Shown one piece after another: positions 12,570 to 43,651 of a stretch of 46,887 nucleotides of DNA (its first letter is position 1; every line of letters begins with the position of its first letter). The translations under genes and the position numbers were made by a program. Location of the stretch: positions 1-46,887 of the forward strand of contig JAFTJI010000129.1 in assembly GCA_017456495.1 (NCBI GenBank), given 5' to 3'. This DNA is from Lentisphaeria bacterium. Its GTDB lineage: Bacteria; Verrucomicrobiota; Lentisphaeria; Victivallales; UBA1829. The notes under the pieces were generated by a model that was not told the origin of the DNA, ran no database searches, and saw nothing but the letters and a program-made list of their open reading frames with translations.

Positions 12570-12592
12570 CCTGACCTCTCCGCTTATTACTT

Positions 12593-12604
12593 TCAGTTAA
12601 CTGA
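12593..12604. promoter_or_regulatory. Palindromic putative operator for the LRR gene
   Basis: Perfect 12-bp palindrome TCAGTTAACTGA just downstream of the predicted transcription start. The same core, TCAGTTAAC, recurs at 12636-12644 inside the promoter spacer, about 42 bp (four helical turns) away centre to centre. Confidence 0.4.
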
Positions 12605-12626
12605 TAAAAAATTCATATTGGTCTAT

Positions 12627-12655
12627 AGTATATACTCAGTTAACAAATTTTTCAA
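12627..12655 (-). promoter_or_regulatory. Sigma-70-like promoter of the LRR gene
   Basis: Minus strand: TTGAAA (12655-12650), an exact 17-bp spacer and TATACT (12632-12627), about 58 bases upstream of the ATG at 12569. The spacer carries one of two TCAGTTAAC elements. Confidence 0.65.
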
Positions 12656-12837
12656 ATCAAAAATCAGAAATCAGATAATATTGTTCTTGCTGAAACTATA
12701 TAAATGATCAGTTTTTTTTATTTGATTGTCAGAAATATATTTTTGCCGGCTCTTATTAGACAGAAAACATTTTTTTCAATCACAAACAACAAAAACGCAG
12801 GAAAAAGAGTTTGACTGCATCAGGAGGATTTTTGAAG

Positions 12838-19668: not shown

Positions 19669-22600
19669 ATGACAGATATGGAAAAATTCACAATCAAATC
19701 AAGAGAAGCAATGCTGGCTTCCCAGCGGATGGCAACAGAACGGGGCAATTCAGAGATCCGCCCGCTCCATCTTTTGAATGCACTGGTCTCTCAGGAAGAC
19801 GGTTTGATCCCCTCTCTTCTCAAGCGGATGAATGTTGAACTCGGTTCAATCATGCTGGCACTGGAACAGGAACTCGTTAAATTACCATCAGTTTCCGGCG
19901 AAGCAGCTCAGAATCCTTACGCTTCACGGGACTTCAATCAAGTGCTGATCGAAGCATCATCCATCGCTGAACACATGAAAGATGAGTATGTCAGCGTGGA
20001 ACATCTGCTTCTTGCAATCATCGAAAAAGACAGCAAGTGTTCCAAACTTCTTTCCGGTTTCGGAGTCGATAAGAACAGCGTTCTTAACGCGTTGAAGTCA
20101 GTCCGTGGAAATCAGAGAGTGACAAATGACTCACCGGAAACAGCATACGAAGCACTGGAAAAATACGGCAGAGATTTGACTCTGGCAGCGGCGCAGGGGA
20201 AACTTGATCCCGTGATCGGACGGGATGAAGAGATCCGCCGGACGATCCAGATTCTTTCCCGGCGCACAAAAAACAATCCGGTACTCATCGGGGAACCCGG
20301 GGTGGGAAAAACTGCCATTGTGGAAGGATTGGCACGCCGGATCACTGACGGTGATGTACCGGAAGGTCTGAAGAATAAAAAACTTGTTGCTCTCGACATG
20401 GGCGCATTGATCGCCGGGGCAAAGTACCGGGGAGAGTTCGAAGAACGGCTGAAAGCTGTCCTGAACGAAGTTTCCGCTTCTGACGGCAGGATCATTCTCT
20501 TTATTGATGAATTGCATACCGTCGTGGGAGCCGGGGGCGGCAGCGATGGTGCAATGGATGCCGGGAACCTGCTGAAACCCATGCTGGCACGCGGGGAACT
20601 TCACTGCATCGGTGCAACAACGCTTGACGAATACCGGAAATATATTGAAAAAGATGCTGCTCTGGAACGGCGTTTTCAATCGGTTCTCGTTCCGCAGCCC
20701 GGGGTGGAAGATACGATTTCCATTCTGCGGGGATTGAAAGAGCGGTATGAAACCCATCACGGGGTAAAGATCAAAGACTCTGCTCTGGTTGCGGCGGCAA
20801 CGCTTTCTGACAAGTATATCACGGACCGTTTTCTGCCCGATAAAGCAATCGACCTGCTGGATGAAGCGGCAGCAAAACTGCGGACAGAGATCGACTCCTG
20901 TCCGGTGGCGATCGACGAACTCTCCCGGAAACAAATGCGCATGGAAATCGAACTTGCCGCATTGAAAAAAGAGACCGATCCCGCCAGCAAAGCAAGACGT
21001 CAAACTCTGGAGCAGGAACTTGCGGAAGTCAAGGACCGCTGCAGCACTTTGAAAGCAGAATGGGAAGCGGAAAAGAAATCTATTGTTGATCTGCGCGATA
21101 TGCGGGCAAATCTGGAACTTGCCAGAACCAATCTAGCAAAAGCGGAACGGGAATATGATCTGAACCGTGCAGCAGAACTCAAGCACGGGATCATCCCGGG
21201 ATTGGAACGGCAAATCGCAGCAATGGAAGAGAAAATCCACTCCGAAAAGACCACCCGCATGGCAAAGGAAGAGGTCTCCGATGAAGATATCGCGGAAATC
21301 GTCTCCCGCTGGACGAAGATCCCTGTCAGCAAGCTGGTTCAGGGCGAACGGGAAAAATTGCTGACCCTGCCTGAAAAGCTTCATGAACGGGTAATCGGTC
21401 AGGATGAGGCTGTAGATGCCGTTTCCGATGCCGTCCTCCGGGCAAGATCCGGGCTGAAAGATCCAAACCGCCCCATAGCCTCTTTCATCTTTCTCGGCCC
21501 CACCGGAGTGGGAAAGACGGAGCTTGCAAAGGCTTTGGCAGAAGATCTTTTCGATGATGAACGGGCGATCATCCGGATCGACATGTCGGAATACATGGAA
21601 AAACACAGTGTCTCCCGTTTGGTCGGCGCGCCTCCGGGATATATCGGCTATGATGAAGGCGGACAGCTTACAGAAGCGGTGCGGAGACGCCCCTATTCTG
21701 TTGTATTGTTCGACGAAATCGAAAAGGCTCACAGCGATGTGTTCAACATTTTCCTTCAGATCCTTGATGACGGCATGCTGACAGATTCCCGCGGAAGAAC
21801 GGTCAACTTCAAAAACACCATTATCATCATGACCAGCAACCTGGGCAGCGATCTTCTGCTTGAGGCGGCAGGAAAGAAAGGTGATGATGAAAAAATCAGA
21901 GAAAAGATGTCAGCACTGCTGAGATCCCAGTTCCGTCCGGAATTCCTGAACAGAATTGATGAAACGCTGATGTTCCGTGCGCTGACACAGAAAGATATTG
22001 AACAGATCCTTGAGATCCAGATGAAACGGTTTGCATTCCGTCTGAAAGAAATGGGAATCGGTTTGGAACTCACCGCAAAAGCAAAAGCACTGCTGGCGAA
22101 GAAGGGTTATGATCCTGAATTCGGGGCAAGACCTCTGAAGCGGACACTTGTCCGTGAAGTGGAAACGCCGGTATCCAGAATGCTGATTGCCGGGGACCTT
22201 CCGGAAGGTTCTGCATTAAAAATAGATGTTTCCGGTGAAGATTTGCACTTCTCTCGCGTATCATATGTTGAAAAGTTTGCGATCAGAGTGTATATTACCC
22301 GATCATACAGAAAAACAGAAGGAATAATTACAGATATGAGCAAAGAAGAAAAGAATCAGGAAGTCCAGGCAGAAGAAACTGTAAAAGCAGCAGAGGCGGC
22401 GGAAGAACAGAAAGAACAGGTTCCTCCCACGCCGGAACAGCTTCTGGAAGAAGCACGGTTGAAATTGGAAGCTGCAGATAAAAAGTATCTGCTCCTGCTT
22501 GCTGATATGGAAAATCTGCGGAAACGCTGCATGAAAGATATGGAATCCACACGGTATAACACCATGGCAGATACCATTACACCGTTTTTGCAGGTCTTCG

Positions 22601-22911
22601 ACCACTTCGGTATGGCTGTGAAAGCCTCTGAACAGTCAGACAATATGAAGATGCTGCTGGATGGATTGAAGATGATCCGCGGTGAATTTGACAAAGCATT
22701 CCAGGAACTGGGTGTTGAGTGCATTGATGCCGTTGGAAAAGATTTTGACCCCAATGTTCATGAAGCGGTTTCCCAGGAAGCCTCTGATACAGTTCCCGCC
22801 GGAAAAGTGATCCGTCAGTGGAACTGCGGTTATAAAACCGGATCCCGTCTGTTGAAACCTGCGATGGTCGTTGTCAGCTCCGGGAAAGCGGAAGAAGCCG
22901 GCAAGGAATAA
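19669..22911 (+). CDS. clpB: ClpB disaggregase, open in frame into GrpE
   Basis: ATP-dependent Hsp100 disaggregase that works with DnaK/DnaJ/GrpE to rescue aggregated proteins. Order: Clp N-domain (about 1-145), first AAA+ with GEPGVGKT (208-215) and LFIDELHT, coiled-coil middle domain (about 405-530), second AAA+ with GPTGVGKT (610-617) and [11 protein letters not shown]-terminal D2-small domain ending near 862. No stop follows: the frame continues through a 27-residue linker that is plainly a former intergenic region (it encodes a consensus promoter and a ribosome-binding site) into complete GrpE at residue 890. Either a true fusion is made, or a one-base change removed the ClpB stop; TGA occurs at 22269 in an adjacent frame. 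AGGAGG supports the start. Confidence 0.9.
22268..22296 (+). promoter_or_regulatory. Consensus promoter for grpE inside the ClpB-GrpE linker
   Basis: TTGAAA (22268-22273), exact 17-bp spacer and TATATT (22291-22296), about 40 bases before the grpE ATG at 22336. It lies within translated linker sequence, showing that grpE has its own transcription signal. Confidence 0.65.
22336..22911 (+). CDS. grpE: GrpE nucleotide exchange factor
   Basis: 191 residues if started at its own ATG; it is also the C-terminal part of the long ClpB frame. Releases ADP from DnaK. An acidic, glutamate-rich N-terminus is followed by the long coiled-coil helix ([17 protein letters not shown]) and the beta domain with [10 protein letters not shown] and a late [10 protein letters not shown] segment, all GrpE-typical. 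A separate promoter and an AAGGAA site upstream suggest it is also translated independently. dnaJ follows after 26 bases; no dnaK is in the window. Confidence 0.88.
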   Translation: MSKEEKNQEVQAEETVKAAEAAEEQKEQVPPTPEQLLEEARLKLEAADKKYLLLLADMENLRKRCMKDMESTRYNTMADTITPFLQVFDHFGMAVKASEQSDNMKMLLDGLKMIRGEFDKAFQELGVECIDAVGKDFDPNVHEAVSQEASDTVPAGKVIRQWNCGYKTGSRLLKPAMVVVSSGKAEEAGKE

Positions 22912-31805: not shown

Positions 31806-33527
31806 TCAAAACTTGATCTCGTAAGAAATGGTATCAGCAGCCCAGGAATCAGAGGGGAGCTCTTTGAGAGTCCGGGTGATCTGATCAACTTCTCCGGGCA
31901 GGAGTCTGATTTCATCAGCTGTAAGACCTGTCGGGATGTGTGTAAGCGGGGCGGGAGATACGATTCCGTAAACACTTTCAAACCCTGCGGGACCATCCTG
32001 TGTAACCTTACCGTACAGCACGCTTTTGGAGGCAGGGAACTCATATTCTTTTCCAGCTTCAACAAAGATCTGCTGATCATAAGCGTTGGGGACCAGAACG
32101 GCAAAACCACCGCCGGATTCAGAACAGAACAGATGGAAATAACCGGTAACAGGAGAACGGAATTTAAAGCTGATATTTTCTCCGACTTTTACTGCTTTCA
32201 TCTCAATAGTTCCAACGAGAGAAATCGCCCGGGAGGTGAAAGTATTCTCACGTTTCAAAGCAATGGGGTGGATCCGTTTCTGATTGGAGATTACTCTTGC
32301 TGCCTCCGTTCTGCGGGTCTGAATATCACCAACAGTTGCGGTCAACTGATTTTTAAGATCGTCAATGATCTTTACAAGTTCTTCTTCCCGCTTCTTGAAA
32401 TTTTCTTCCAGAGCTGCCTGTGCAGAAGCATTGAATGCCATTCCCTGTTCAACAGCCTGCAATTTTCTGGTGCGGTATTCTTTGCTGAATGCGACTTTAT
32501 TCTTCAATACTTCAAGTTCGTACAATTCTTTTTGCTTCTGGATTTCAAGGATTTCCATATTTTTTGCACGAGCGTCTGCATCAGCTTCTATTGCAAGTTC
32601 TCTTTCCTTGATTTCCAGAGCCATAAGAGCTTTTTTCTGACGGAGAGCCATCCAGATTTCTTCGCGTTCAGCTCTGATTTTGTCGATTTCTTTCTGGACT
32701 TCTTCGTCTGCAGATTCTTTCTGGATCCGCAGTGCGAGTTTTTTCTGTTCTGCAGCGAGGTGGCAGTCCTGTTCCCGCATATTTGCAGCAAACGCGGCAT
32801 CCTTTTCGCTCTGTTCCATTTCCTGAAGAGAGATCCGGTAAGACATTTCAGCCTGCTTCTGCTGAAGTTCCAGAGCCATACGTCTCTGGCTATCTGCCAA
32901 TTCATCGCAGTATTTCTTAAATTCTTTTTCGCTTTCAGAGAGGATCGCTTCGGTATCAGCAAAGGTGATTTCAACGTTCATCCAAGGGAATGCTTTCAGC
33001 ATACAATCTTTTGCCAATGCAAGGATCTGCATGTTCACATTCTGGCTGGAAGAGACTTCGTTATACTTTTCCGGCTGATAAAGCTCCCGTTCAAGACTTG
33101 CAAAAAATTCCTTTTTGCGGTCCGCCAGCTTTGCATCGATTTCTTCTGTGTGCAGTTCAGTTTTTCCGGCAAGCCAGGAGATAAGTTCGGTCATATCCTT
33201 ATTAACATCCAGCCCGGTGACCTTGACACCAAGAGTTGTCAGAAGAGGCTTCGGGGAATCCTGATGACGAAGTGTTCCGTCAAATGTCAGATCAAACGCC
33301 CGGGGAGAAATATAATATCCGCCTTTCCAAACAGTCTCATTTTTATCTTTGAAGAAAAACATTTTTTTCTTCAATTCAGCTTCATCCCTGGGAACCATCG
33401 GAGCAAAGAATGATTTTCCGCTCTCGTAGTTGTTGACAAGAACCCAGATGTGATCTTCAGCGTGCGGATCCTGCTGTTTGACGAATTCGAAATCCGCTGC
33501 TGTTTCAATTTTTTTGATAAAAAGCAT
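31806..33527 (-). CDS. Coiled-coil protein with C-terminal DUF4384 domain
   Basis: 573 residues, last gene of the cluster. An N-terminal globular domain (about 1-170) ends in a region ISPRAFDLTFDGTLRHQDSP...VTGLD that recalls SPFH/band-7 domains, but weakly. A long charged coiled coil runs from about 200 to 415. The C-terminal domain (about 450-540) has SPVTGYFHLFCSESGG, VPNAYDQQ, AGKEYEFP and GFESVYGIVSP, the DUF4384 pattern (small beta domain usually outside the cytoplasm). No TM helix or signal peptide is seen. The plan resembles membrane scaffold proteins, which fits a membrane-remodelling cluster. Shares the minus-strand unit with DUF1294 (gap 17). Confidence 0.8.
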   Translation of the reverse strand: MLFIKKIETAADFEFVKQQDPHAEDHIWVLVNNYESGKSFFAPMVPRDEAELKKKMFFFKDKNETVWKGGYYISPRAFDLTFDGTLRHQDSPKPLLTTLGVKVTGLDVNKDMTELISWLAGKTELHTEEIDAKLADRKKEFFASLERELYQPEKYNEVSSSQNVNMQILALAKDCMLKAFPWMNVEITFADTEAILSESEKEFKKYCDELADSQRRMALELQQKQAEMSYRISLQEMEQSEKDAAFAANMREQDCHLAAEQKKLALRIQKESADEEVQKEIDKIRAEREEIWMALRQKKALMALEIKERELAIEADADARAKNMEILEIQKQKELYELEVLKNKVAFSKEYRTRKLQAVEQGMAFNASAQAALEENFKKREEELVKIIDDLKNQLTATVGDIQTRRTEAARVISNQKRIHPIALKRENTFTSRAISLVGTIEMKAVKVGENISFKFRSPVTGYFHLFCSESGGGFAVLVPNAYDQQIFVEAGKEYEFPASKSVLYGKVTQDGPAGFESVYGIVSPAPLTHIPTGLTADEIRLLPGEVDQITRTLKELPSDSWAADTISYEIKF

Positions 33528-33854: not shown

Positions 33855-34790
33855 TTAAGATTCCAGTTTCAAAGCAAAACACATGATGAAGTAATTGTAG
33901 ATGAATGCAATTACAGATGCTGCAATGAACATAACAACACTCCAACCGGAGTCGAAAGTTGCTCCGACCATGAAGAAAGCAAGAATCGCACCGATCAATG
34001 TATAGAGTGTAAGAATACTCGCATTAAGTCCGTTGGAATGCTTTGCCACCATCGTGCGAAGGAAGGAAATCGTCATAATGGGAAGCAGCAGGACCGCCAG
34101 AACAAAAATCAGGAATCTGATGTACCAGGGAACTTCCTGAGTCGCCTCAGCTACCGGAGCCATTGTCTCAGAAACATCCTCCACAACCTCAGCAACCTTT
34201 GCAGGTGCTTTCCTGGAGGTATCTTCATCCAGTGTCCCTTCACAAATAATATCACCGGTCTTGATATCAACGATCTGCCAGGAACCTTTCAGAATCACGC
34301 CGCCTTCGAAAGACTCGTATTTTTCAATGGTTCCCCACAAAACGCCTTCAGCATCCCGTCCTTTAACAGCATTCAAAGCTGTGAGCTTGGAAGAATATCC
34401 TTCTTCACGGATGCCCATTTTCTTTCTGAACTTTTCCGGAAGAGTCATATCATCCAAAGTCAGAATGCCGGATGAATTCAACTTATCACGCAGGGTATCG
34501 GTGACAAATCCCGTAGAGTCATTTGCAAAGTGCAGAAGAATGACTCGTCTCGTTTCACCGCGCTGTGTCCGGATCTGCTCAGTGATCTTATCAACAGACT
34601 TGATCGCAATATCCTGCCGTTTTTTATTCGGCATAACTTTTTCCGGACCATAATGATTCCAGAGAACAGCGGCGAGAAAAACCAATATTATCAGCCAGCC
34701 TGCCAATGAAAAAAGGTTCGTTACCAACTTGAAAATGATTTTAAACAAGCCTTTTCTGTTCGTGCTTTTTTCTTTTTCTTCATCACTCAT
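33855..34790 (-). CDS. CsgG/LpoB-like membrane protein
   Basis: 311 residues. A lysine-rich cytoplasmic start, one TM helix (about 26-45), then a domain (about 60-200) with RRVILLHFANDSTGFVTDTL and GVLWGTIEKYE, which resembles the CsgG/LpoB-type alpha/beta domain found at the inner face of the outer membrane or in periplasmic regulators. Three C-terminal TM helices (about 223-245, 260-280, 285-305) follow, making it an inner-membrane protein with one periplasmic domain. GGAGG precedes the ATG. It is separated from the AAA+ gene by 170 bp containing two hairpins, so expression may be stepped down or separate. Confidence 0.7.
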   Translation of the reverse strand: MSDEEKEKSTNRKGLFKIIFKLVTNLFSLAGWLIILVFLAAVLWNHYGPEKVMPNKKRQDIAIKSVDKITEQIRTQRGETRRVILLHFANDSTGFVTDTLRDKLNSSGILTLDDMTLPEKFRKKMGIREEGYSSKLTALNAVKGRDAEGVLWGTIEKYESFEGGVILKGSWQIVDIKTGDIICEGTLDEDTSRKAPAKVAEVVEDVSETMAPVAEATQEVPWYIRFLIFVLAVLLLPIMTISFLRTMVAKHSNGLNASILTLYTLIGAILAFFMVGATFDSGWSVVMFIAASVIAFIYNYFIMCFALKLES

Positions 34791-34960: not shown

Positions 34961-37900
34961 TCACGGAATGCACTGAAGGAAATTCTCCTCCGTCAACTTG
35001 TAACGGGCAGGACCATCCCCTGTTTTTTCCAGAAGGATCCTGAACCGTTCCAGAGTGGCAGGATGAGAAATATCCGAATCAACAGGAATATCCCTGTCAG
35101 CTCCGCCGAGCGCGCAATCTGCCACAAAGGAGAGCGCAGCCCCAAGCGTAAGAACTTCTCTGAGAGCCGGATCCTGGATTCCATTGACCACATCCACTGC
35201 AAATTCATCCGCAGAACGTTCCATATTCCGGGCGTAAGCGGAGCCTGTTCCGATCTTGAAGATATCGCCGTAAACGATATGTCCGAGTTCGTGAGCAATG
35301 GTGATCGCTGTCATCGCACAGGCGAGAGCCTTGATATTTTCATATTCCGACGGCTGAGAGAAAAGCTCGTACTTTGCATCAAGCTCTTTCATGCTGCTCT
35401 CATCGAAACCGCCGCCGTTCCGGCAGAGAATCTCGTTGACACTCACGAGGAACTCTCTGACCTTTTCAGGATGATCCAGAGTCAATGCAGGATTGTACTT
35501 CTTGTAAAATGCTGCAAAGGTGAAGTTGACCAGGTTCAGCCCTTCGTACAAGACAATTGCCGGACGGAGAGGATCTTCCTCAAGAACAGGATCGTGGATC
35601 CCGTATCTTTCAAGAACATTGCTGATCACTGTCGCATACGCATTGAAATTGTTGCTGTCATCATATTCATCGTTGTACATAAAGAAGACTTTGTCGGAAA
35701 AATGCTTGTAGTCAGGAGTATTCTGAATTGTTGCAGATGAGAAAACCATATCTTTGACTGCAACAGCATCAGGAGAAGCAATGGTCACTTCCTGAGTTTC
35801 GCCTTCATCATTGACCGGACTGACAATGCGGATGGAATACATTTCCTTGAACTTACGGATCTCTTCGATCCGGGAAGAATCTCTGACAGAACTCGGTGTA
35901 ACACTTGCCAACGCACTCTCGAAATCTTTCCAGCAGAGCGGTTCAACAATGTCCTTTTCTCTCGGATCCTGCTTGATCCGGTCAACCCATCTCCGGCTGG
36001 CAAAGGTACGGGCAAGATTGCAAACACCCCCGCCCTTTTCCTTGTGGAAGATCTCTGCACAGCTGTAGCCTTCTGTCAGATCTGCAAGTTTATCAATATC
36101 AACATCATCTGCAATGCTGTTCTCGGCAATGGCGGAAAGGATGATCTCTTTCCGGGTTTCCTTGTCAGGAAGACCGACATAGACAGACGCACTGATTCTT
36201 CCGCTGCGGAGCAACGCACCGTCAATCATCCAGGGACGGTTTGTTGCGATCAGAACAAAGACTTTGCTGCCGCCGTTTTTCTTCAATCCATCCAGCTCTG
36301 TCAGGAACTGGGAGACACCGTAAGCCTTGGAGCTGCCGGGACGGGAGAGGATCTCTTCGCAGTCATCCAGGAACAATACACAGCCATGAGGACATGTGCG
36401 TGCTCTTGAGAACAGCTGGGAAATCATCTGAACAGTCTGAAGAGGAGTCTTTCCGCGAACTTCTGAAAGTGTTACAGGAATAAACTCGGTGCGAAGCTCA
36501 TTTGCAATTGCTCTGCCGAACATGGTCTTTCCGGTCCCCGGCGGACCATACAGGAGCAATCCGGTTCCGGGAATAACCCCAAGCGTATTGTAAACTTCCG
36601 GATAAAGGATCGGATTGATAAGAGAATCGTAAACAGCCTCTTTCGCTTCTTTCAACCCTTTGATATCATCCAGTGTAACACCGTTTTTCTTCACTGCCGG
36701 TGCAGGCTTCGGTGCAGGTGCTGCAGGGGGCTTCGGCGCAGGTGCTGCAGGGGGCTTCGGCGCAGATGCCGGCGCAGGAGATGCAACTGCCGGATCCTGC
36801 GCTTTCGGCTGCTCCGGCGCAGGTGCCGGAGCAGGTGCAGCAGGTTTAATTATTTTTTTTTTATCCCGTGTGATCCCGATGCTTTCTTCCCATTCGGCAA
36901 TCTTCTGGGAAGTTTCTGCACTGCAGGAGGGGATCGCCTTAGCTCTGGCCTCTGTAAAGAGAGCTTTTGTATAACGGTCAAGATTTTTGTCGAACGCCAT
37001 CTGTTTTGCATTCATAAGAATACCGGTGACATCTGCACCGTTGAATCCATCAGTAGCATCTGCAAGGTATTCAATTGCATCCTGATCAACAGGATAGTCA
37101 ATAGACTTTACAGAATTTGTGATGATCTTCTTTCTTGCCTCACGGTCAGGAAGACCGACATATGCCTTGACGTCAAACCGGTTTGTGCGGAGGAACGCTT
37201 CGTCAACCATCCAGGGATTGTTTGTTGCGCCCATCAGCAGAATCGGATTGCTGTTTTCGGAATTAACACCATCCAGCTCCTGAAGCAGCACAGAAATCAC
37301 TTTCTGAGTTGTTTCATGAACATTGTCATCACGCCGCCGGAAAATAGTTTCCAATTCGTCAATGAAAACAACGGAAAGAGGATTCTTTCTGGCATCTGCA
37401 AAGATCGCACGGATATTGTTTTCAGATTCCCCGACATATTTTCCGAAGACATCAGCAGAAGTAATGGCATAGAAAGGAAGATTCAGCTCTCCCGCCACTG
37501 CCTTGGCAATGAAAGTCTTTCCGGTTCCCGGCGGACCGTAAAGCAAAATTCCGCCGCCGACACGGATACCGTGTTTCTTAGCTTCTTCCGGACGTTTCAG
37601 AGGCTCGATCATGCGCAGACGGATCTGCTCTTTGACATCTTCCATCCCTGCAACATCATCAAGACGAACGCTGGGACGTTCCATAGCCTGAACCTTGGAT
37701 TCTGCCGGAGCTTCTTCTCCATTGCCGGAAACTTTTTCCGGTGTCTTCACATTCGCTTTTCCGATTCTCGGTTTGATCTCCTTTTCCGCAAGGTCAAGGA
37801 GATCGTTACCATTCTGGATATATGCCTGACGCAGAACGCCATCGCACTGTTCCGCTAAAGCAAAAGCATACCGGGCAGCTTCATTAGTGTGATAGAAGGC

Positions 37901-37981
37901 TTTGGAATAGTCCCTCTTCTGCACAGCCTTTGCAGCTTCTGCTTCGTGCTCATTTTTTTTCTGAAAATTAAAACTGCTCAT
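34961..37981 (-). CDS. MIT-like / Vps4-like AAA+ / AAA+ / M48-like metalloprotease fusion
   Basis: 1006 residues, the core of the cluster. Residues 1-70: a three-helix segment (AVQKRDYSKAFYHTNEAARY, LLDLAEKEIK) with the pattern of MIT domains that bind ESCRT-III tails. 105-345: AAA+ module very like Vps4/katanin: GPPGTGKT (149-156), pore loop GKYVGESE (180-187), Walker B VVFIDE (204-209), GATNNPW. 378-432: Pro/Ala linker. 435-690: second AAA+ with GPPGTGKT (479-486); its Walker B reads VLFLDD (535-540), Asp for the catalytic Glu. 890-985: metalloprotease with HELGH (897-901), E921/D925 and SHP near 972, the M48 (HtpX/Oma1) arrangement. No TM helix is seen. AGGA lies upstream of the ATG; 13 bases after the ESCRT-III-like gene. 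Confidence 0.9.
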   Translation of the reverse strand: MSSFNFQKKNEHEAEAAKAVQKRDYSKAFYHTNEAARYAFALAEQCDGVLRQAYIQNGNDLLDLAEKEIKPRIGKANVKTPEKVSGNGEEAPAESKVQAMERPSVRLDDVAGMEDVKEQIRLRMIEPLKRPEEAKKHGIRVGGGILLYGPPGTGKTFIAKAVAGELNLPFYAITSADVFGKYVGESENNIRAIFADARKNPLSVVFIDELETIFRRRDDNVHETTQKVISVLLQELDGVNSENSNPILLMGATNNPWMVDEAFLRTNRFDVKAYVGLPDREARKKIITNSVKSIDYPVDQDAIEYLADATDGFNGADVTGILMNAKQMAFDKNLDRYTKALFTEARAKAIPSCSAETSQKIAEWEESIGITRDKKKIIKPAAPAPAPAPEQPKAQDPAVASPAPASAPKPPAAPAPKPPAAPAPKPAPAVKKNGVTLDDIKGLKEAKEAVYDSLINPILYPEVYNTLGVIPGTGLLLYGPPGTGKTMFGRAIANELRTEFIPVTLSEVRGKTPLQTVQMISQLFSRARTCPHGCVLFLDDCEEILSRPGSSKAYGVSQFLTELDGLKKNGGSKVFVLIATNRPWMIDGALLRSGRISASVYVGLPDKETRKEIILSAIAENSIADDVDIDKLADLTEGYSCAEIFHKEKGGGVCNLARTFASRRWVDRIKQDPREKDIVEPLCWKDFESALASVTPSSVRDSSRIEEIRKFKEMYSIRIVSPVNDEGETQEVTIASPDAVAVKDMVFSSATIQNTPDYKHFSDKVFFMYNDEYDDSNNFNAYATVISNVLERYGIHDPVLEEDPLRPAIVLYEGLNLVNFTFAAFYKKYNPALTLDHPEKVREFLVSVNEILCRNGGGFDESSMKELDAKYELFSQPSEYENIKALACAMTAITIAHELGHIVYGDIFKIGTGSAYARNMERSADEFAVDVVNGIQDPALREVLTLGAALSFVADCALGGADRDIPVDSDISHPATLERFRILLEKTGDGPARYKLTEENFLQCIP
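36717..36764. repeat. Perfect 24-bp tandem duplication in the Pro/Ala linker
   Basis: Two identical 24-base units (36717-36740 and 36741-36764) encode one extra turn of the Ala-Pro-Lys-Pro linker between the two AAA+ modules. Such repeats change length easily by slippage, so linker length may vary between strains. Confidence 0.85.
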
Positions 37982-37994
37982 GATTCAGTCCTGT

Positions 37995-38663
37995 TTACTG
38001 CTGGTCCTTGAGATTCTTCTTGATTCTTTCCAGTCCTTCATTGATGGCGGAACTGCCCTGGCTTACGGGGCTGGCGTTATCGCCTGCAGGAGTTGATGTA
38101 AAACCACCGGCAATTTCTCCGGCAGCTTCTGTTTCCAGCGCATTCATCAGGTTTTCATCAAACTCTGCATCTGCGAGAGATTCGGACTCACGGTCAAGCT
38201 GAGCCATGTTCTTTTCAAAGGCTTTGTCCATGGTCTTGTTGATTTCATTGATATCAGCGGATGCAATATCAATGTTTTCAAGACTGTCTGCAATAAAATC
38301 AGAAGAAATGCCCATTCCGGCAGCCATTTCGCCGAGAGCTCCCATTGCAATCTGCATATCTCTTGCACCGGTAATCATATCAAGCTGGTGCTGGACAAAA
38401 GATTTCTGACGGTCAAGTCGGGAAAGCATAATATCTTTTGATTTGTACATTTTCAGAAGACGGGCTGCTTCATTTTTCTGACCGCTCTGGAGCTTCATCT
38501 TAGCATTTTTCCAAATTTTCTCGCGCTCACGCTCCATATCTCTGATTTTGTCAGAAAGGTTATCGACCACACGTTCAACAGCACGTTCCACTTTTCTTGC
38601 TTGCTGACGTTTTCTTCTTTCTGCAGATTCTCTTGATTCAAACAAATTGCTCCAAAATCCCAT
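37995..38663 (-). CDS. ESCRT-III (Snf7/Vps2)-like protein 1
   Basis: 222 residues, almost all helix. An amphipathic start MGFWSNLFES; a basic first helix (11-57); a hairpin tip SGQKNEAARLL (60-70) matching the GQxxxAxxxxK tip of eukaryotic ESCRT-III; a second helix (70-98); then ARDMQIAMGALGEMAAGMG (100-118), like the 'SMAQAMKGVTKAMG' stretch of Vps2/CHMP2. Helix 4 (120-150) follows, then an acidic segment EFDENLMNALETEAAGEI (167-184), a flexible tail, and a terminal LERIKKNLK (211-219) resembling the MIT-interacting motif. Family members polymerise on membranes and are disassembled by Vps4. The gene lies 13 bases before the MIT-AAA+ gene. Homology is inferred by eye. Confidence 0.78.
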   Translation of the reverse strand: MGFWSNLFESRESAERRKRQQARKVERAVERVVDNLSDKIRDMEREREKIWKNAKMKLQSGQKNEAARLLKMYKSKDIMLSRLDRQKSFVQHQLDMITGARDMQIAMGALGEMAAGMGISSDFIADSLENIDIASADINEINKTMDKAFEKNMAQLDRESESLADAEFDENLMNALETEAAGEIAGGFTSTPAGDNASPVSQGSSAINEGLERIKKNLKDQQ

Positions 38664-38689: not shown

Positions 38690-39316
38690 TTAATTATCTA
38701 ATTTCTGTCTGATATTATTTTCTGTTTTAGAACCGACTCCATTACCGGAACCGGCAACATATCCCATATCACCGGCGACCTCAGCTTCCAAAACTGCCAT
38801 CAGATCATCATCGCCATCTATGTATGCAGACTGCTCTTCATACATTCTTGCCTGCTTTTCCTCATCTTTCAACATCACGCGATCCACAGTTTTATTCAAA
38901 TCGGAGACGACCGATGAAGTATCTTCAATTGTATCCATTGTATCCGTCATTGCATTCGGATCAAGGTTCGCAGCTTTAGCCATACCTTCCAAAGCTTTTG
39001 CAGCTTGAGTCATCTCCGCTGCGACTTGGATATCTGTCTGTTTCGTTTGAATAAATGATACCTGTCTGCTCAAACGGGCAAGCATCACTTCTTTCGCTTT
39101 ATACTGCTGCAGCAAACGGGCAGCATCCTGTTTCAATCCTTGTGCAGCCTTCATTTTTGCAGCCTGCCAAAGCTTAGATTTTTCTTTCTCCAGAGCATCG
39201 ATTCTATCTGAAAGTTTATCCACGCTTTTGTCAACAGCACGCTCATTACTACGCACAGTAGCCTGCTGCTCTCGCTCGATGTCTTTCGACGATTTCAAAA
39301 AGTCAAACCATCCCAT
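38690..39316 (-). CDS. ESCRT-III (Snf7/Vps2)-like protein 2
   Basis: 208 residues, a diverged paralogue of protein 1 with the same order: amphipathic MGWFDFLKSS, basic helix, tip AAQGLKQDAARLLQQYKAKE (57-76), second helix, MTQAAKALEGMAKAAN (102-117), helix 4 with VSDLNKTVDRVM, acidic DDDLMAVLEAEVAGDM (169-184), and a short tail ending NNIRQKLDN. I prefer ATG 39316 over GTG 39322 because AAGGAA is then properly spaced and the N-terminus matches the paralogues. Two different subunits in tandem recall the hetero-polymers of ESCRT-III. Gap of 26 bases to protein 1. Confidence 0.75.
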   Translation of the reverse strand: MGWFDFLKSSKDIEREQQATVRSNERAVDKSVDKLSDRIDALEKEKSKLWQAAKMKAAQGLKQDAARLLQQYKAKEVMLARLSRQVSFIQTKQTDIQVAAEMTQAAKALEGMAKAANLDPNAMTDTMDTIEDTSSVVSDLNKTVDRVMLKDEEKQARMYEEQSAYIDGDDDLMAVLEAEVAGDMGYVAGSGNGVGSKTENNIRQKLDN

Positions 39317-39389
39317 TTTCACATTTCCTTATTTTAATTGTTGATCTTGTTCTGTCTAAGGAGATACGAATCAGACAAAAATCTGACAC

Positions 39390-39959
39390 TTAAATTTCAG
39401 AAAGTTCATCTTTTTTTTCTGCGTGCTCAATTCCGAGCGCAGAATCCATCTGCTTACCGAGCAAATCATCCTCAGAAGAAACAACTCCGAAGTCGGGTTC
39501 GCTATCATCATCTCCCTCAATGGAAATACCACGAAGTTGATCCCCGGCTTTTCTTTGATCACGCACATCTCGGGACAAATTATCCCTGTCTTCTGCAGCA
39601 ATCTCCAATTTGTCAATCATATCCGGATTCTCCAGATGTTGAAGCTGCAGATATGCATTGTGAATAAGAGTTGTAAGATCCTTAAGATCTTTAGAAACAA
39701 GCTGTTCCTTTTCCTTCATCAGCTCCAATTGCTGAAGCAACGGTTTGATTTTTGCAGCAAGAATCGTTTTTTCTGCACCGTGCGCACTGTCATATTCAGG
39801 ACGAAGGACTTTTATCTGAGCTTCCAAATCACGGATTTTAGCAATAAAGCCATCCAATTGCAAATCCAGAGAAGCTTTCCGGTTCTCATAATTTGCAATA
39901 TCTTTTTCCAGCCGCCTCTTTTCGCCTGCGGCCCCATCAAATAAATCAAACAATCCCAT
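39390..39959 (-). CDS. Charged helical protein, second-pair paralogue A
   Basis: 189 residues. It shares the short amphipathic start (MGLFDLFDG) with the ESCRT-III-like pair, then a long helix, and the block LEAQIKVLRPEYDSAHGAEK followed by AAKIKPLLQQLELMKEKE, which is a helical hairpin with a tip at about AHGAEKTI (59-66). An acidic C-terminal third follows. It is clearly paralogous to the next gene upstream (same block nearly unchanged). It could be a more remote ESCRT-III-type or PspA-like subunit, or an accessory coiled-coil protein; I cannot decide by eye. Confidence 0.75.
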   Translation of the reverse strand: MGLFDLFDGAAGEKRRLEKDIANYENRKASLDLQLDGFIAKIRDLEAQIKVLRPEYDSAHGAEKTILAAKIKPLLQQLELMKEKEQLVSKDLKDLTTLIHNAYLQLQHLENPDMIDKLEIAAEDRDNLSRDVRDQRKAGDQLRGISIEGDDDSEPDFGVVSSEDDLLGKQMDSALGIEHAEKKDELSEI

Positions 39960-39989
39960 TTTTCGCTTCCTTTGTATTAATGAGGCTGA

Positions 39990-40577
39990 TCATGCCTCTT
40001 CCGGTACATCTTTCTTCTTTTCTTCATCCATGGATTTGAAATAATTATCAATATCACTCACATCTGCGGAAGAGTCCGATATAGAGAAATCAGGACTTTC
40101 ATTTTCCTCTCCCGGCAATTTAACTGACTCCAGTTTTTCTGCTTCCCTGGACTGTTCCCGCATATCATAAACAATATCCTTCTTCTTGTCAATCGTATTT
40201 TTAAGATCTTCTATGATATCAGGATTCTGCAGCTGCTGAAGCTGCAGTTCATCCGTATGAATAATATCTGTAAGATTTTTGATATTCAGAGAAGTCAGCC
40301 TTTCCTTCTCCTTCATCTGCTCCAATTCCTGAAGCAAAGGCTTGATCTTGGCTGAAATAATATTTTTTTCTGCTCCGTGAGCACTTTCATATTCGGGACG
40401 AAGGACTTTGATCTGAGCTTCCAGATTTCTGATTCTCTTGATATAAAGATCCAGCTCACGATTAAGATTGCGTCTGCTTTCCTCGTTTGCAGCGATCTTT
40501 TTTCTCAATTTTTTCTCTTCAGAGTCTATCAAGCCAAGCCCCGTCATCAAGTTATAAAGCCAATCAGGAATCACCAT
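39990..40577 (-). CDS. Charged helical protein, second-pair paralogue B
   Basis: 195 residues. N-terminus MVIPDWLYNLMTGLGLID is hydrophobic/amphipathic and could touch the membrane. Then come a basic helix and LEAQIKVLRPEYESAHGAEK, with AKIKPLLQELEQMKEKERL, nearly identical to paralogue A, and an acidic tail ending in a lysine-glutamate cluster. Conservation is concentrated in the hairpin, as if that is the assembly surface. GGAGG lies upstream. Gap of 16 bases after the papain-like protease gene and 30 before paralogue A. Confidence 0.75.
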   Translation of the reverse strand: MVIPDWLYNLMTGLGLIDSEEKKLRKKIAANEESRRNLNRELDLYIKRIRNLEAQIKVLRPEYESAHGAEKNIISAKIKPLLQELEQMKEKERLTSLNIKNLTDIIHTDELQLQQLQNPDIIEDLKNTIDKKKDIVYDMREQSREAEKLESVKLPGEENESPDFSISDSSADVSDIDNYFKSMDEEKKKDVPEEA

Positions 40578-40593: not shown

Positions 40594-42366
40594 TTATTTT
40601 ATCCGTTCATATCTGAAACTCTGCCATGCCTGATTTCTCTTGTAGCCTACAATTACAGAAATCACACCAACAATATAACCGATCTCTTTTTTGAGAGAAA
40701 GTGTGACCATGGCTATCACCAGGACAGTAGGGATCAGCCACAAAATCAGCTCCAGGAGCTGTCTTTTTGAAGCATGACCATACCGTTTCTTCTTTTTATA
40801 TCCGGCAGGAATATTCCATGTTGGCGGAATAATATTTCCTGCTTTATTCTTTGCATATTCTCCGCTGCTGAAAATCAGATCCAATGCGGATTCGACCTGC
40901 CGGTCATACAAACCTCTTCCATCCACAGCCCCGAGGGATTCCCGGATCGTATCTTTGTTGATAACACCGGATCCAACCCAGTTATCCAATTTGTTCTTGA
41001 TCGGAATATAATAGCTTCCGGGCAGAAGGTGTGAGAAAAACTCCTGAGTGATCCAGCCGCATTCTGCTTTCGGCAGATGGAACAGCCAAGCACCATCTTC
41101 CCCGGGTTCACAAAGGAAAAGTGCAGGATCACAGGATGAAGAACATCCATCCGCAAATTTTCCGGAAGTGCCGACCGTGAAAATCGTATAACGCGCCGGA
41201 ACTCTGCAGCTTCTGGAATAAACATCATTGTAATAGTGCAGAAGCTGATCCACATCATTCATATCAACCTGTTTTCCATCATTGCGATAAAGAAATGCAC
41301 TTACCAGATGATAGTAAGCACTGCCTTGTATCTGGATCCGGAAAATCTTTACTTCATTGTATAAATGTTTGATACCTTTCTGTTCAAGATACTTCCGGAA
41401 ACCCTCCGGATTCCGGTGATTCTCAGCCTGATTGAAACAGGATGTTTTCACATTCCAGAAAGCCCCGATATTTTTGGGAAACGGAAGACGGATCCCGGGA
41501 TATGAATACTCCCCATCCATCATATTTTTCTTCTGGGATGTAAAAAAGTCATTCTTATCAGCTGTCGCCTTTGCCGGAAGACCGGGCACTTTCACGTCCA
41601 CTTTTTCGTCGACAGGAGCTTCTTTTACAGTCTCATTATTCCCGGAATCTGTTGCGATTTCAGGCTCTTCAACTTCAGAAGATCCAGCCTCAGCAACAAA
41701 ACGTCCGGCACTGTAGGCATACTCCTCAATATATTCAAACGGGATCTTGATATCATTCATACTGCCCCAGCTGTTCTGAACATAAAAATATCCCTTGGAC
41801 TCCATCCCGGGGGTATCTTTCCATCCATAGATCAGCATTGCATGATATCCGTTTTCTGCATCAAAAGGTGTCGTCGGCAGTTTTGCCCATCCCGGTTCAT
41901 CAAATGTGGTGGAAAACACTTTACAGCCGACAACGATCGGAGAGGGACGCTTCCCATCAGCACCGCTCAAGACACTCTTATACTCATCAATTCCGCGGGG
42001 CGGATTGGTCTTGAGCATCTGGAATTCAACATTTTCAAAGCGGATCGGATTCAAGGAATGCAATACTTCCGCTACCGTCTGATTTTCATGTCCGCCGCGA
42101 TTACGGTTGTAAGGCCATTCCGAATAACGGCAAACACCATATTCTTTCACACTGCTGAACACTCTTGCTATATCGCACCCTTCCGTATCATTATCCAAAT
42201 GGCAGATTGCATAAAGATGCTGGGGACTCAGTCTTTCTTTGAAGTCAAGATAATATTCCAGCATTGCAACAGTGCTGAATGCAGCACAGGTTCCCCGTTC
42301 TCCCTGATCTGTTTTCCGGGGAAACCCTTTTAACCGATATTCTGTAGACTCACTGAAAATGTTCAT
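40594..42366 (-). CDS. Papain-like cysteine protease with C-terminal membrane helices
   Basis: 590 residues. The N-terminal C1-type peptidase (about 10-220) has Cys27 in DQGERGTCAAFS, His175 in NGYHAMLIYGW and Asn198 in YFYVQNSWGS, so the catalytic triad is complete. A serine/threonine- and acid-rich linker (about 225-275) leads to a second domain of unknown type (about 280-520). Two hydrophobic helices near the end (about 535-555 and 560-577) put the protease on the membrane. No signal peptide or pro-domain is seen, so it is probably cytoplasmic-facing. Its ATG overlaps the anti-sigma-like stop (ATGA). A role in cleaving the regulator or a cluster component is an inference. Confidence 0.85.
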   Translation of the reverse strand: MNIFSESTEYRLKGFPRKTDQGERGTCAAFSTVAMLEYYLDFKERLSPQHLYAICHLDNDTEGCDIARVFSSVKEYGVCRYSEWPYNRNRGGHENQTVAEVLHSLNPIRFENVEFQMLKTNPPRGIDEYKSVLSGADGKRPSPIVVGCKVFSTTFDEPGWAKLPTTPFDAENGYHAMLIYGWKDTPGMESKGYFYVQNSWGSMNDIKIPFEYIEEYAYSAGRFVAEAGSSEVEEPEIATDSGNNETVKEAPVDEKVDVKVPGLPAKATADKNDFFTSQKKNMMDGEYSYPGIRLPFPKNIGAFWNVKTSCFNQAENHRNPEGFRKYLEQKGIKHLYNEVKIFRIQIQGSAYYHLVSAFLYRNDGKQVDMNDVDQLLHYYNDVYSRSCRVPARYTIFTVGTSGKFADGCSSSCDPALFLCEPGEDGAWLFHLPKAECGWITQEFFSHLLPGSYYIPIKNKLDNWVGSGVINKDTIRESLGAVDGRGLYDRQVESALDLIFSSGEYAKNKAGNIIPPTWNIPAGYKKKKRYGHASKRQLLELILWLIPTVLVIAMVTLSLKKEIGYIVGVISVIVGYKRNQAWQSFRYERIK

Positions 42367-43079
42367 GAAAATGACTCCGGTAAGAATTTGATTGTACCTG
42401 ACACTGCACCGCCGTCAGGGAAACGGACCCCGATAGAAGCACACTGGCGATCATTCTGGAAATCCTTAAACGGAATAGAGACCCGACCCATTACGATGGC
42501 GAACTCTTTTCCCAGGAATAACAATGTTCCGCGGGATAAATTTGCTCCGGACTTATCCTGAACAGTCATCGTAATCATTGCAGATTCTGACACCATCATC
42601 GGGAAAGCCATCTGACTCTTCCAGTAATAGGCGGAATCATTCGGTACTTCCGATTCGAATGTGATGGTCGAAAGTGACCCGGAAATCGGCATAGCAGGAG
42701 CTGCCAGAGGACTTGAAGCTGCAAACGAAACCTTCTTTGAGGAGAATGACACCTGAGCATTCTGCGTCGTTAACTGATTCATGCTGAGGAAGGGAAGCCC
42801 CTTCTTCACCTGTTCCTGGAGCTTTACAGCAGTGCTGCTGATAAAATTCTGGAATTTCTTCCAAACACTGTTTCTTGCAAAGAGAGCTGCTGTTGCATCT
42901 TTCGCCAACTGTTTATCTCCCGGTAACGGCTCCGGATTCTCAGAACACGTTTCCAACGCCAGCTCATAATTCTGCCGGCACTCGGAACAATGGAAAATAT
43001 GATTCATCACTTCAAAATTTTCTTCCCTTGCAGGGTCCATAACAAAAGCAGCAATCTGTTCAAAACTCAAACACTTCAT
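42363..43079 (-). CDS. Zinc-finger anti-sigma-like protein
   Basis: 238 residues. The N-terminal 45 residues hold H27-x3-C31-x2-C34 (HIFHCSEC), the zinc anti-sigma (ZAS) signature. A lysine-containing helix and linker follow, then a beta-rich C-terminal domain (about 140-238) with a GRVSIPFKDFQ segment. No transmembrane helix is visible, so unlike most ECF anti-sigmas it looks soluble; release would need ligand sensing, redox or proteolysis. ATGA overlaps with both neighbours: the sigma gene upstream and the protease gene downstream. Confidence 0.8.
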   Translation of the reverse strand: MKCLSFEQIAAFVMDPAREENFEVMNHIFHCSECRQNYELALETCSENPEPLPGDKQLAKDATAALFARNSVWKKFQNFISSTAVKLQEQVKKGLPFLSMNQLTTQNAQVSFSSKKVSFAASSPLAAPAMPISGSLSTITFESEVPNDSAYYWKSQMAFPMMVSESAMITMTVQDKSGANLSRGTLLFLGKEFAIVMGRVSIPFKDFQNDRQCASIGVRFPDGGAVSGTIKFLPESFS

Positions 43080-43651
43080 CTTGCACCGCCTTCCATTTCC
43101 CGAAGTAAATTAACCATATCTTCTTTTGCACGTTTATAAATCTGATCCACATTGCTTTCTGTAAGCCCCAACATGGCAGAGATCTGCTTCGTCGGCAGAT
43201 CATAATATTTTTTCAACTGATAAACATACGCTCTCATGGGATTCAACCTCCATAATTTAGAAAAACTTTTCTCCACGACTTCCCAAACTTCTGTGTTGTC
43301 GCTAATGTAGACGTTATCAGTTTCATTTTCTGACACCGGATTTTCATTTTTTTTGCAATATTCTAAAATAATCTTCTTAACATATATACGCATCCAGAAA
43401 AAAAGAGGACAGCCCGCCGCATATTTTTTCAAGGTTTTCTTGTACACCATCTCCTCGTAAAGCATTGCATAAATAGTAATTTCATTCAGATCCCGATCCT
43501 TCATGATCGTATAATAAGACGATCCATTCTTTGTACGGCTTCTGAGAACAGGAAGAACGACCTCCTCATATACAGCTGTCCATTTCTCTTCGGATTCTGC
43601 TAAAAGAGCTTCGGCAAATTGCAGTTCCTCTTCAACGCTATAATCAATCAT
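43076..43651 (-). CDS. ECF-type RNA polymerase sigma factor
   Basis: 191 residues. Region 2-like helices (about 15-105, ending in FFWMRIYVKKIILEYCKK) and a region 4 helix-turn-helix (about 125-185) containing LKKYYDLPTKQISAMLGLTESNVDQIYKRAKEDM in pieces. It lacks a recognisable sigma region 3. First gene of the cluster, coupled to the zinc-finger anti-sigma-like gene, so the cluster is probably switched on by a specific signal and may be autoregulated. AGGGG lies upstream of the ATG. Confidence 0.87.
   Translation of the reverse strand: MIDYSVEEELQFAEALLAESEEKWTAVYEEVVLPVLRSRTKNGSSYYTIMKDRDLNEITIYAMLYEEMVYKKTLKKYAAGCPLFFWMRIYVKKIILEYCKKNENPVSENETDNVYISDNTEVWEVVEKSFSKLWRLNPMRAYVYQLKKYYDLPTKQISAMLGLTESNVDQIYKRAKEDMVNLLREMEGGAR

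Follow-up and report, generated by a model that had tools for sequence, protein, structure and literature searches.

A diverged helical protein family accompanies Snf7-type ESCRT-III proteins and an AAA ATPase in Lentisphaeria

The window, by which we mean the whole 46,887-nucleotide stretch of DNA that was analyzed, is a single contig of a 3.43-Mb draft genome of a Lentisphaeria bacterium, a lineage within the PVC group, and it holds one minus-strand gene array. At its head lie an ECF-type sigma factor (positions 43076 to 43651), which matched PF08281 above the cut-off (E 8e-7) and TIGR02937 under that model's cut-off (E 1.9e-7), and a protein with an N-terminal His/Cys motif (42363 to 43079), whose gene overlaps the sigma gene by 4 bp and which had no match in Pfam or NCBIfam; its position suggests that it is anti-sigma-like. 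They are followed by a 590-aa papain-like (C1) protease (40594 to 42366), which exceeded the PF00112 cut-off (E 2.7e-10) and has the Cys, His, and Asn motifs of the papain type as well as, by hydropathy, one C-terminal TM-like segment. Then come two paralogous proteins, A2 (39990 to 40577, 195 aa; identified by BLASTP, an AF2 model, and a tree) and A1 (39390 to 39959, 189 aa; a coiled-coil hairpin protein identified by its ORF and the family A profile), two proteins of the Snf7/ESCRT-III family, B1 (38690 to 39322, 210 aa, GTG start as listed) and B2 (37995 to 38663, 222 aa), and a 1006-aa ATPase (34961 to 37981). The array closes with a membrane protein with four TM-like segments, here called TM311 (33855 to 34790), and a DUF4384 protein (31806 to 33527; PF14326, E 6.7e-13), whose downstream position is kept in several relatives. 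Between the sigma and ATPase genes, neighboring ORFs are spaced −4 to 67 bp apart, and promoter and terminator scans gave nothing usable.

Two other genes of the window drew attention in their own right. On the plus strand, positions 19669 to 22911 encode a 1080-aa protein with ClpB-type Clp_N, AAA, AAA_2, and ClpB_D2 domains and a C-terminal GrpE, an unusual ClpB-GrpE fusion. On the minus strand, positions 9678 to 12569 encode a 963-aa protein with a Cys-rich N terminus, a hydrophobic segment, and leucine-rich repeats resembling the LRR part of a caspase-LRR protein that stands beside the module in a relative locus (L045); it was rejected as a caspase, since the caspase-LRR query matched it only via the leucine-rich repeats.

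The A1 and A2 ORFs are separated by 30 bp, and their products were 46% identical over 168 aa (BLASTP, E 3e-51). The first-pass annotation of this DNA had described the pair as nearly identical across LEAQIKVLRPEYxSAHGAEK and AKIKPLLQxLExMKEKE and diverged elsewhere. Both strings were present, and the best 40-residue window, A1 residues 45 to 84 (39708 to 39827, minus strand), had 34 of 40 residues identical to A2, compared with 83 of 187 aligned residues overall (P = 5e-5 in 20,000 permutations of identities). The BLASTP alignment placed the same block of A2 at residues 52 to 91 (40305 to 40424, minus strand). For comparison, the best window of B1/B2 reached 23 of 40 (P = 0.08), and this pair thus has no such block. 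The AF2 model of A2, built from a ten-sequence alignment with a mean pLDDT of 77.5, has helices at residues 5–13, 20–65, 69–117, 121–151, and 174–188. Since one helix ends at 65 and the next starts at 69, the A2 block spans the hairpin turn, in agreement with the earlier suggestion that conservation is concentrated in a helical hairpin. Within the block, Tyr63 and Glu90 of A2 were invariant and Leu81 was nearly so in a 10-member family alignment.

The same stretch was the most conserved 42-residue window in 18 other family A members, a set that leaves out the window proteins, with a modest and purely descriptive margin of 2.23 versus 1.99 bits; the five most conserved windows of this length in the helical part began at residues 49 to 53. 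The freeze is therefore a family property and not a quirk of this pair. Gene conversion as the origin of the block found no clear support, as identical codons accounted for 24 of 34 identical residues inside it versus 26 of 49 outside (Fisher P 0.12); the longest exact DNA run common to the two genes was 14 nt. Judged from these comparisons, selection would be the simpler cause. A1 and A2 were grouped as sisters in the tree with support of 99/98, indicating a local duplication, and two family A genes occurred in only 2 of the 20 relative loci that carry A, B, and the ATPase together (trio loci, below), namely the window and L032.

We found the neighboring pair to be recognizable by sequence. 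B1 and B2 matched PF03357 at 31.1 and 28.6 bits, respectively, over the Pfam cut-off of 27.3, and an all-bacterial profile of 17 B proteins matched yeast Snf7 in the PDB at 7.8e-13; the same profile matched Asgard ESCRT-IIIB at 1e-5 and, weakly, CHMP2A at 0.06. At E ≤ 0.1, 18 of 20 B members matched PF03357. The top two Foldseek PDB matches of the B2 AF2 model were Snf7 and Asgard ESCRT-IIIB (E 0.035 and 0.044), yet no E-value of this search passed 0.001, and Foldseek E-values therefore say little for such folds. Chains of the ESCRT-III superfamily (ESCRT-III, PspA, and Vipp1) filled, by hand count, 36 of the top 50 Foldseek positions with the B2 model and 16 with the A2 model. The family is divergent, just 5 of the 288 phylum genomes having a PF03357 match over cut-off, and B proteins from three held-out genomes were weaker Snf7 matches than the profile seeds: two matched PF03357 below cut-off (0.0003 and 0.0055), and that of L110 had no match. 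The PspA/IM30 family was absent from the full Pfam lists (E ≤ 1) of A1, A2, B1, and B2. From these profile matches, we identify family B as a bacterial Snf7-type ESCRT-III. The earlier view of the neighboring pair as ESCRT-III-like is thus upheld by the PF03357 and yeast Snf7 matches and by the fold, and the analogy to ESCRT is sound because B is ESCRT-III by sequence and the operon holds an AAA ATPase.

Further Snf7-type genes were seen in two relatives. In L024 (14840 to 18089, plus strand), the main operon is followed at once by a second cluster that has an additional ATPase and three additional B genes but no second A. In L030 (genome G158; 12104 to 12781, minus strand), a protein scoring 33.6 bits against the cut-off of 27.3 lies beside two AAA genes; its weak PDB list held CHMP1A at E 0.29, ranked under several SNAP-25 chains. 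It is possibly another bacterial ESCRT-III branch.

The window ATPase consists of an N-terminal helical domain of about 74 aa, two AAA modules, whose Walker B motifs read IDE and LDD, respectively, and a C terminus that carries an HELGH motif and resembles M48 weakly, under the cut-off (E 0.0016). In L036 and L031, an M48-like gene of its own stands close to the module, as if the protease were either fused or free. Single-module relatives have the ∼74-aa N-terminal domain and one AAA module, as in Vps4, a likeness of architecture. The N-terminal domain is conserved and reads as helical, and no MIT domain was detected in it: among 14 ATPase N termini, none gave MIT in Pfam (E ≤ 1) or a MIT or Vps4 chain in the PDB (E ≤ 10), and a PF04212 search of 14 genomes matched no module ATPase. 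Among four single-module relatives, Vps4_C was matched weakly by that of L036 (E 0.014, below cut-off) and was absent from the full lists of those of L076 and L023; the lists covered the best 25 of 30 families for L045 and the best 25 of 46 for the window ATPase.

The window ATPase scored 303.9 bits against the CdvC model NF041006 of NCBIfam, under its cut-off of 650. The L045 ATPase matched Cdc48/p97 first in the PDB, a ranking by whole-chain scores that favor chains with two AAA modules, and its first single-module chain was katanin (1e-49). The ATPase of L110 has a different lid type, AAA_lid_6. The module ATPase may thus do the job of Vps4 without being Vps4.

Family A was tied to B and the ATPase outside this cluster as well, a distribution that the first-pass annotation had singled out for checking. 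Among 288 genomes of the phylum searched with a 20-sequence A profile (E ≤ 1e-4), A was found in 16, B in 15, and both in 15, the sole genome with A and without B (G239) having a weak A match (8e-5). Twelve of the 15 genomes with both also supplied profile sequences; the three held-out ones (G084, G145, and G198) all had A, B, and an ATPase with the common N-terminal helical domain together; A adjoins B on its upstream side in two of them, and in G145 a single small ORF intervenes. With earlier profiles, 148 genomes of the class gave A in 11, B in 12, and both in 10 (hypergeometric 7e-13), and G375 of this class sample has B with no match to the first A profile. PF03357 by itself (E ≤ 0.001) picked out 12 of the 288 genomes, 10 of which have family A; the other two are G266, with a short partial match, and G158, the source of L030. 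The G266 locus (L033) had neither A nor B and was left out of the locus table.

In that table of 23 relative loci, window included, all three genes, the ATPase having this N-terminal helical domain each time, were present in 20, counting as one the two contigs of G272 (L025 and L026) over which the trio is split. The exceptions were L079, with A and a protease and no B within the 19 kb read, L080, a 6.3-kb contig with A and without B, and L030, which has its Snf7 protein and two AAA genes and lacks A. A scan of a contig collection with A3 found three loci, all in Lentisphaeria gut MAGs (roe deer, yak, and sheep), a count that is a lower bound because two short patterns were used. Snf7 thus has in family A a steady but diverged companion across the genomes sampled from one bacterial phylum, and A1 and A2 belong to a new family that is the regular partner of Snf7-type B and an AAA ATPase.

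The module occurs in three gene settings. The first, seen in the window, L023 to L029, L044, L045, and L076 to L078, has the order A-B-ATPase, with a further B upstream of A in L023, and a protease precedes A in 11 of 12 loci (the exception being L023); a sigma factor, an anti-sigma-like gene, TM311, and DUF4384 are often added. Counted over all 20 trio loci, TM311 was a neighbor of the module in 12. The second setting (L031, L032, L034, L035, L036, L111, and L112) varies in gene order, with neighbors that differ by locus (SPFH zinc-ribbon, FHA, kinase, or M48-type genes). Here A has a Cys/His region at its N terminus in L031, L032 (the gene at 1986), L034, L036, L111, and L112; this region was not seen in the other L032 copy and was not clear in L035. 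The third setting is L110, where A-B-ATPase-TM311 lies downstream of a large helicase/nuclease gene.

Whether A itself belongs to ESCRT-III was approached from several sides. Snf7 was absent from the full Pfam lists of A1 and A2 at E ≤ 1, and for 20 A members at E ≤ 0.1 it was not among the best 25 of 36 families, beyond which a single-member match above about E 0.056 could hide. None of the three held-out A proteins matched Snf7 at 0.05. PDB searches with two A profiles returned coiled coils and no ESCRT-III chain. With the A2 model, Foldseek found nothing at E ≤ 0.001, most of the non-ESCRT rows of its top 50 being unrelated helical proteins, and VIA-align placed Snf7 (Z 11.3) and PspA (11.2) level with many unrelated hairpins. 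Known families were rejected as an identity for the A relatives, which gave weak matches to assorted helical families among the best 25 of 27 and the best 25 of 36, the strongest in the latter being ATG16 (5.5e-4, 1 of 20 members). The first-pass annotation had allowed that the conserved block might align to a known, unrelated coiled-coil family; this did not occur, as every Pfam and NCBIfam model stayed below its cut-off with A1 and A2.

The families of the two neighboring pairs were also compared by profile, as proposed at that stage. The hhalign probability for A versus B was 0.8% with 10 and 17 sequences, 28% with 20 and 20, 38% with 21 and 23, and 63% (E 7e-5, score 38.1) with 24 and 26 sequences including the held-out genomes. 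In the last of these, the third helices were aligned, A2 120–150 with residues 118–148 of the B protein of L029, and they were paired each time at near-equal residue numbers. Among 200 shuffled profiles (100 with B columns and 100 with A columns shuffled, in blocks of 7 to 21), the maximum score was 33.9 and none reached 38.1; reversed profiles scored 22.3 and 22.7. The rise in probability with added sequences, together with the register, favors remote homology of A and B, but the homology stays unproven because the confident span is short, about 31 columns. Three further features of A were observed. The helix order of the A2 model is ESCRT-III-like (a short helix at the N terminus, then a long hairpin, a third helix, a flexible linker, and a C-terminal helix), although Foldseek and VIA-align do not tell the model from other hairpins; all 14 plain family A members scored had an amphipathic N terminus (best hydrophobic moment 0.50 to 0.62, a descriptive figure); and several A tails have, by eye, an acidic/leucine C-terminal helix, where a MIM motif would be sought. 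As for the earlier proposal of four filament subunits in one operon, B1 and B2 are ESCRT-III by sequence. A1 and A2 went undetected as Snf7 by Pfam and PDB profiles, and the proposal as a whole is plausible from context and not from proven homology.

On balance, we lean narrowly toward placing A in a bacterial Snf7-A-AAA membrane machine, as an adaptor or as a second subunit that is ESCRT-III-like but highly diverged. A less probable reading, which we still take seriously, is that A is an unrelated, nonpolymerizing coiled-coil scaffold or adaptor, a membrane tether for the protease, the ATPase, or the Snf7 filament. It would account for the lack of a direct sequence match to ESCRT-III and for a coiled-coil fold that Foldseek and VIA-align found generic; the Cys/His region fused to A in the second setting might suit an adaptor, and L079 has A and a protease with no B. 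Against it, the third-helix match of A and B is in register and scored above all 200 shuffles, and the size and helix order of A resemble those of ESCRT-III.

A further reading concerns the purpose of the operon and is compatible with A as either subunit or scaffold: the operon could be a regulated cell-death or conflict system in which, on infection, protease, caspase neighbors, and filament attack the cell's own membrane. A papain-like protease is present in 11 of the 20 trio loci, and caspase-domain genes lie by the module in 4 of them (L023, L029, L045, and L035). All three papain motif patterns were found in the window protease, partial sets in 5 of 9 others, and none in the proteases of L027, L028, L076, and L079, so that catalysis is not assured family-wide. 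The window ATPase matched the anti-phage IetA model of PADLOC at 8.7e-60, a model that carries no cut-off here; the match may be plain AAA likeness, because the score against the NCBIfam anti-phage ATPase model was 187 bits, far below its cut-off of 510. The module is also patchy, being absent from two other searched genomes of the window's genus. On the other side, nine other scanned proteins had no PADLOC match at E ≤ 0.001, and no caspase gene adjoins the operon in the window, the 10 caspase-domain (PF00656) matches of this genome all lying on other contigs. Moreover, A relatives were absent from viral contigs (two-pattern scan) and B2 relatives from plasmids, on which grounds a phage or plasmid origin was rejected as well. 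Taken together, we regard the cell-death reading as unlikely.

ESCRT-III with an ATPase is the core of archaeal division according to passages of PMC7240154, but a Cdv-like division machine is very improbable here, because the module is rare (B in only 15 of 288 phylum genomes) and FtsZ-family matches, all below cut-off, were present in 17 of 20 module-bearing genomes tested, the window's own included; the FtsZ cut-off was passed by none of the 22 genomes searched, and G342, G191, and G365 gave no match at all. That A1 and A2 are ordinary paralogous coiled coils next to B by chance, sharing no function with it, deserves almost no credence, for although coiled coils do yield weak spurious similarity, this is already contradicted by the co-occurrence of A and B in 15 of 15 genomes and at all three held-out loci.

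Under the favored reading of A as a diverged ESCRT-III-like subunit or adaptor, B would polymerize on the cytoplasmic face of the inner membrane, the amphipathic N-terminal helix of A would bind the membrane, and A would coassemble with B, its conserved hairpin tip being a candidate contact surface; with two copies each of A (A1/A2) and B (B1/B2), the filament would be composite. The ATPase may dock via its N-terminal helical domain and pull the filament apart, and this disassembly would drive membrane constriction or repair. In the window's clade, the operon's own ECF sigma factor, probably of the envelope-stress type, would switch the operon on, and the membrane-anchored papain-like protease would work alongside its machinery. 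A fuller version, to which we give somewhat less than even credence, is a complete bacterial ESCRT in PVC bacteria, made up of B, an undescribed ESCRT-III branch A, and a Cdc48-like ATPase, serving stress-induced remodeling and coupled to papain or caspase proteases. Just as tentatively, the ATPase in this version would have its own tail-binding domain and take the composite filament apart.

The window operon resembles the eukaryotic and archaeal systems of ESCRT-III with Vps4 (Snf7; CdvB/CdvC) in that profiles identify B as Snf7, the modeled helices of A follow the same order, and several paralogous subunits are encoded in one operon with an AAA ATPase that has a small N-terminal helical domain. 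As background, passages of PMC7240154 describe the binding of a MIM motif in the ESCRT-III tail to MIT. Unlike these systems, the one in the window is bacterial, A is not recognized as Snf7, and the ATPase N-terminal domain is not recognized as MIT; among solved chains, Cdc48/p97 was the best match of a relative's ATPase, the window ATPase has two AAA modules and a metalloprotease-like C terminus, and the operon includes a protease and an ECF sigma factor. With bacterial PspA/Vipp1, which are the bacterial relatives of ESCRT-III in passages of a 2024 survey (PMC10936438), the module shares the ESCRT-III superfamily and a link to stress, and the SPFH zinc-ribbon neighbors of the second setting are paralleled by an SPFH protein at some PspA loci in passages of that survey. 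It differs in its dedicated AAA ATPase, its two different helical families, and the lack of a PspA match noted above. The same passages report homologues of many ESCRT components in archaea and not in bacteria.

The nearest precedents stand in PMC11237479, passages of which place TM-bearing bacterial homologues of Snf7 next to AAA+ ATPases, report the movement of VPS4-like ATPases into bacteria, and describe PspA-Snf7 pairs in Bacteroidetes joined by a third gene that encodes a PspA-like coiled coil. That third gene is a possible parallel to family A. Thus, as far as these passages go, neither Snf7 with an ATPase nor Snf7 with a coiled coil is new as such in bacteria, since both are reported there. 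The described cases are unlike the window: snf7 has given way to a TPR/6TM gene, stands with transport genes, or forms a pair with PspA, and these passages make no mention of an operon with a papain-like protease. Among titles and abstract openings, a scope that leaves subscription journals and preprints outside, no paper on family A was found, and the family is nameless.

These data hint that bacteria possess a counterpart of a membrane-cutting machine known mainly from eukaryotes and archaea, and the operon would set such an ESCRT-like machine beside proteases and an ECF sigma factor. If true, the complete-ESCRT reading would extend to bacteria the logic of two subunits plus an ATPase that is now ascribed to archaea and eukaryotes. 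With a profile-clear Snf7, a second helical partner, and an ATPase, the operon offers a small, testable system for the origin of multisubunit ESCRT filaments, where the question is one of transfer versus an older stock.
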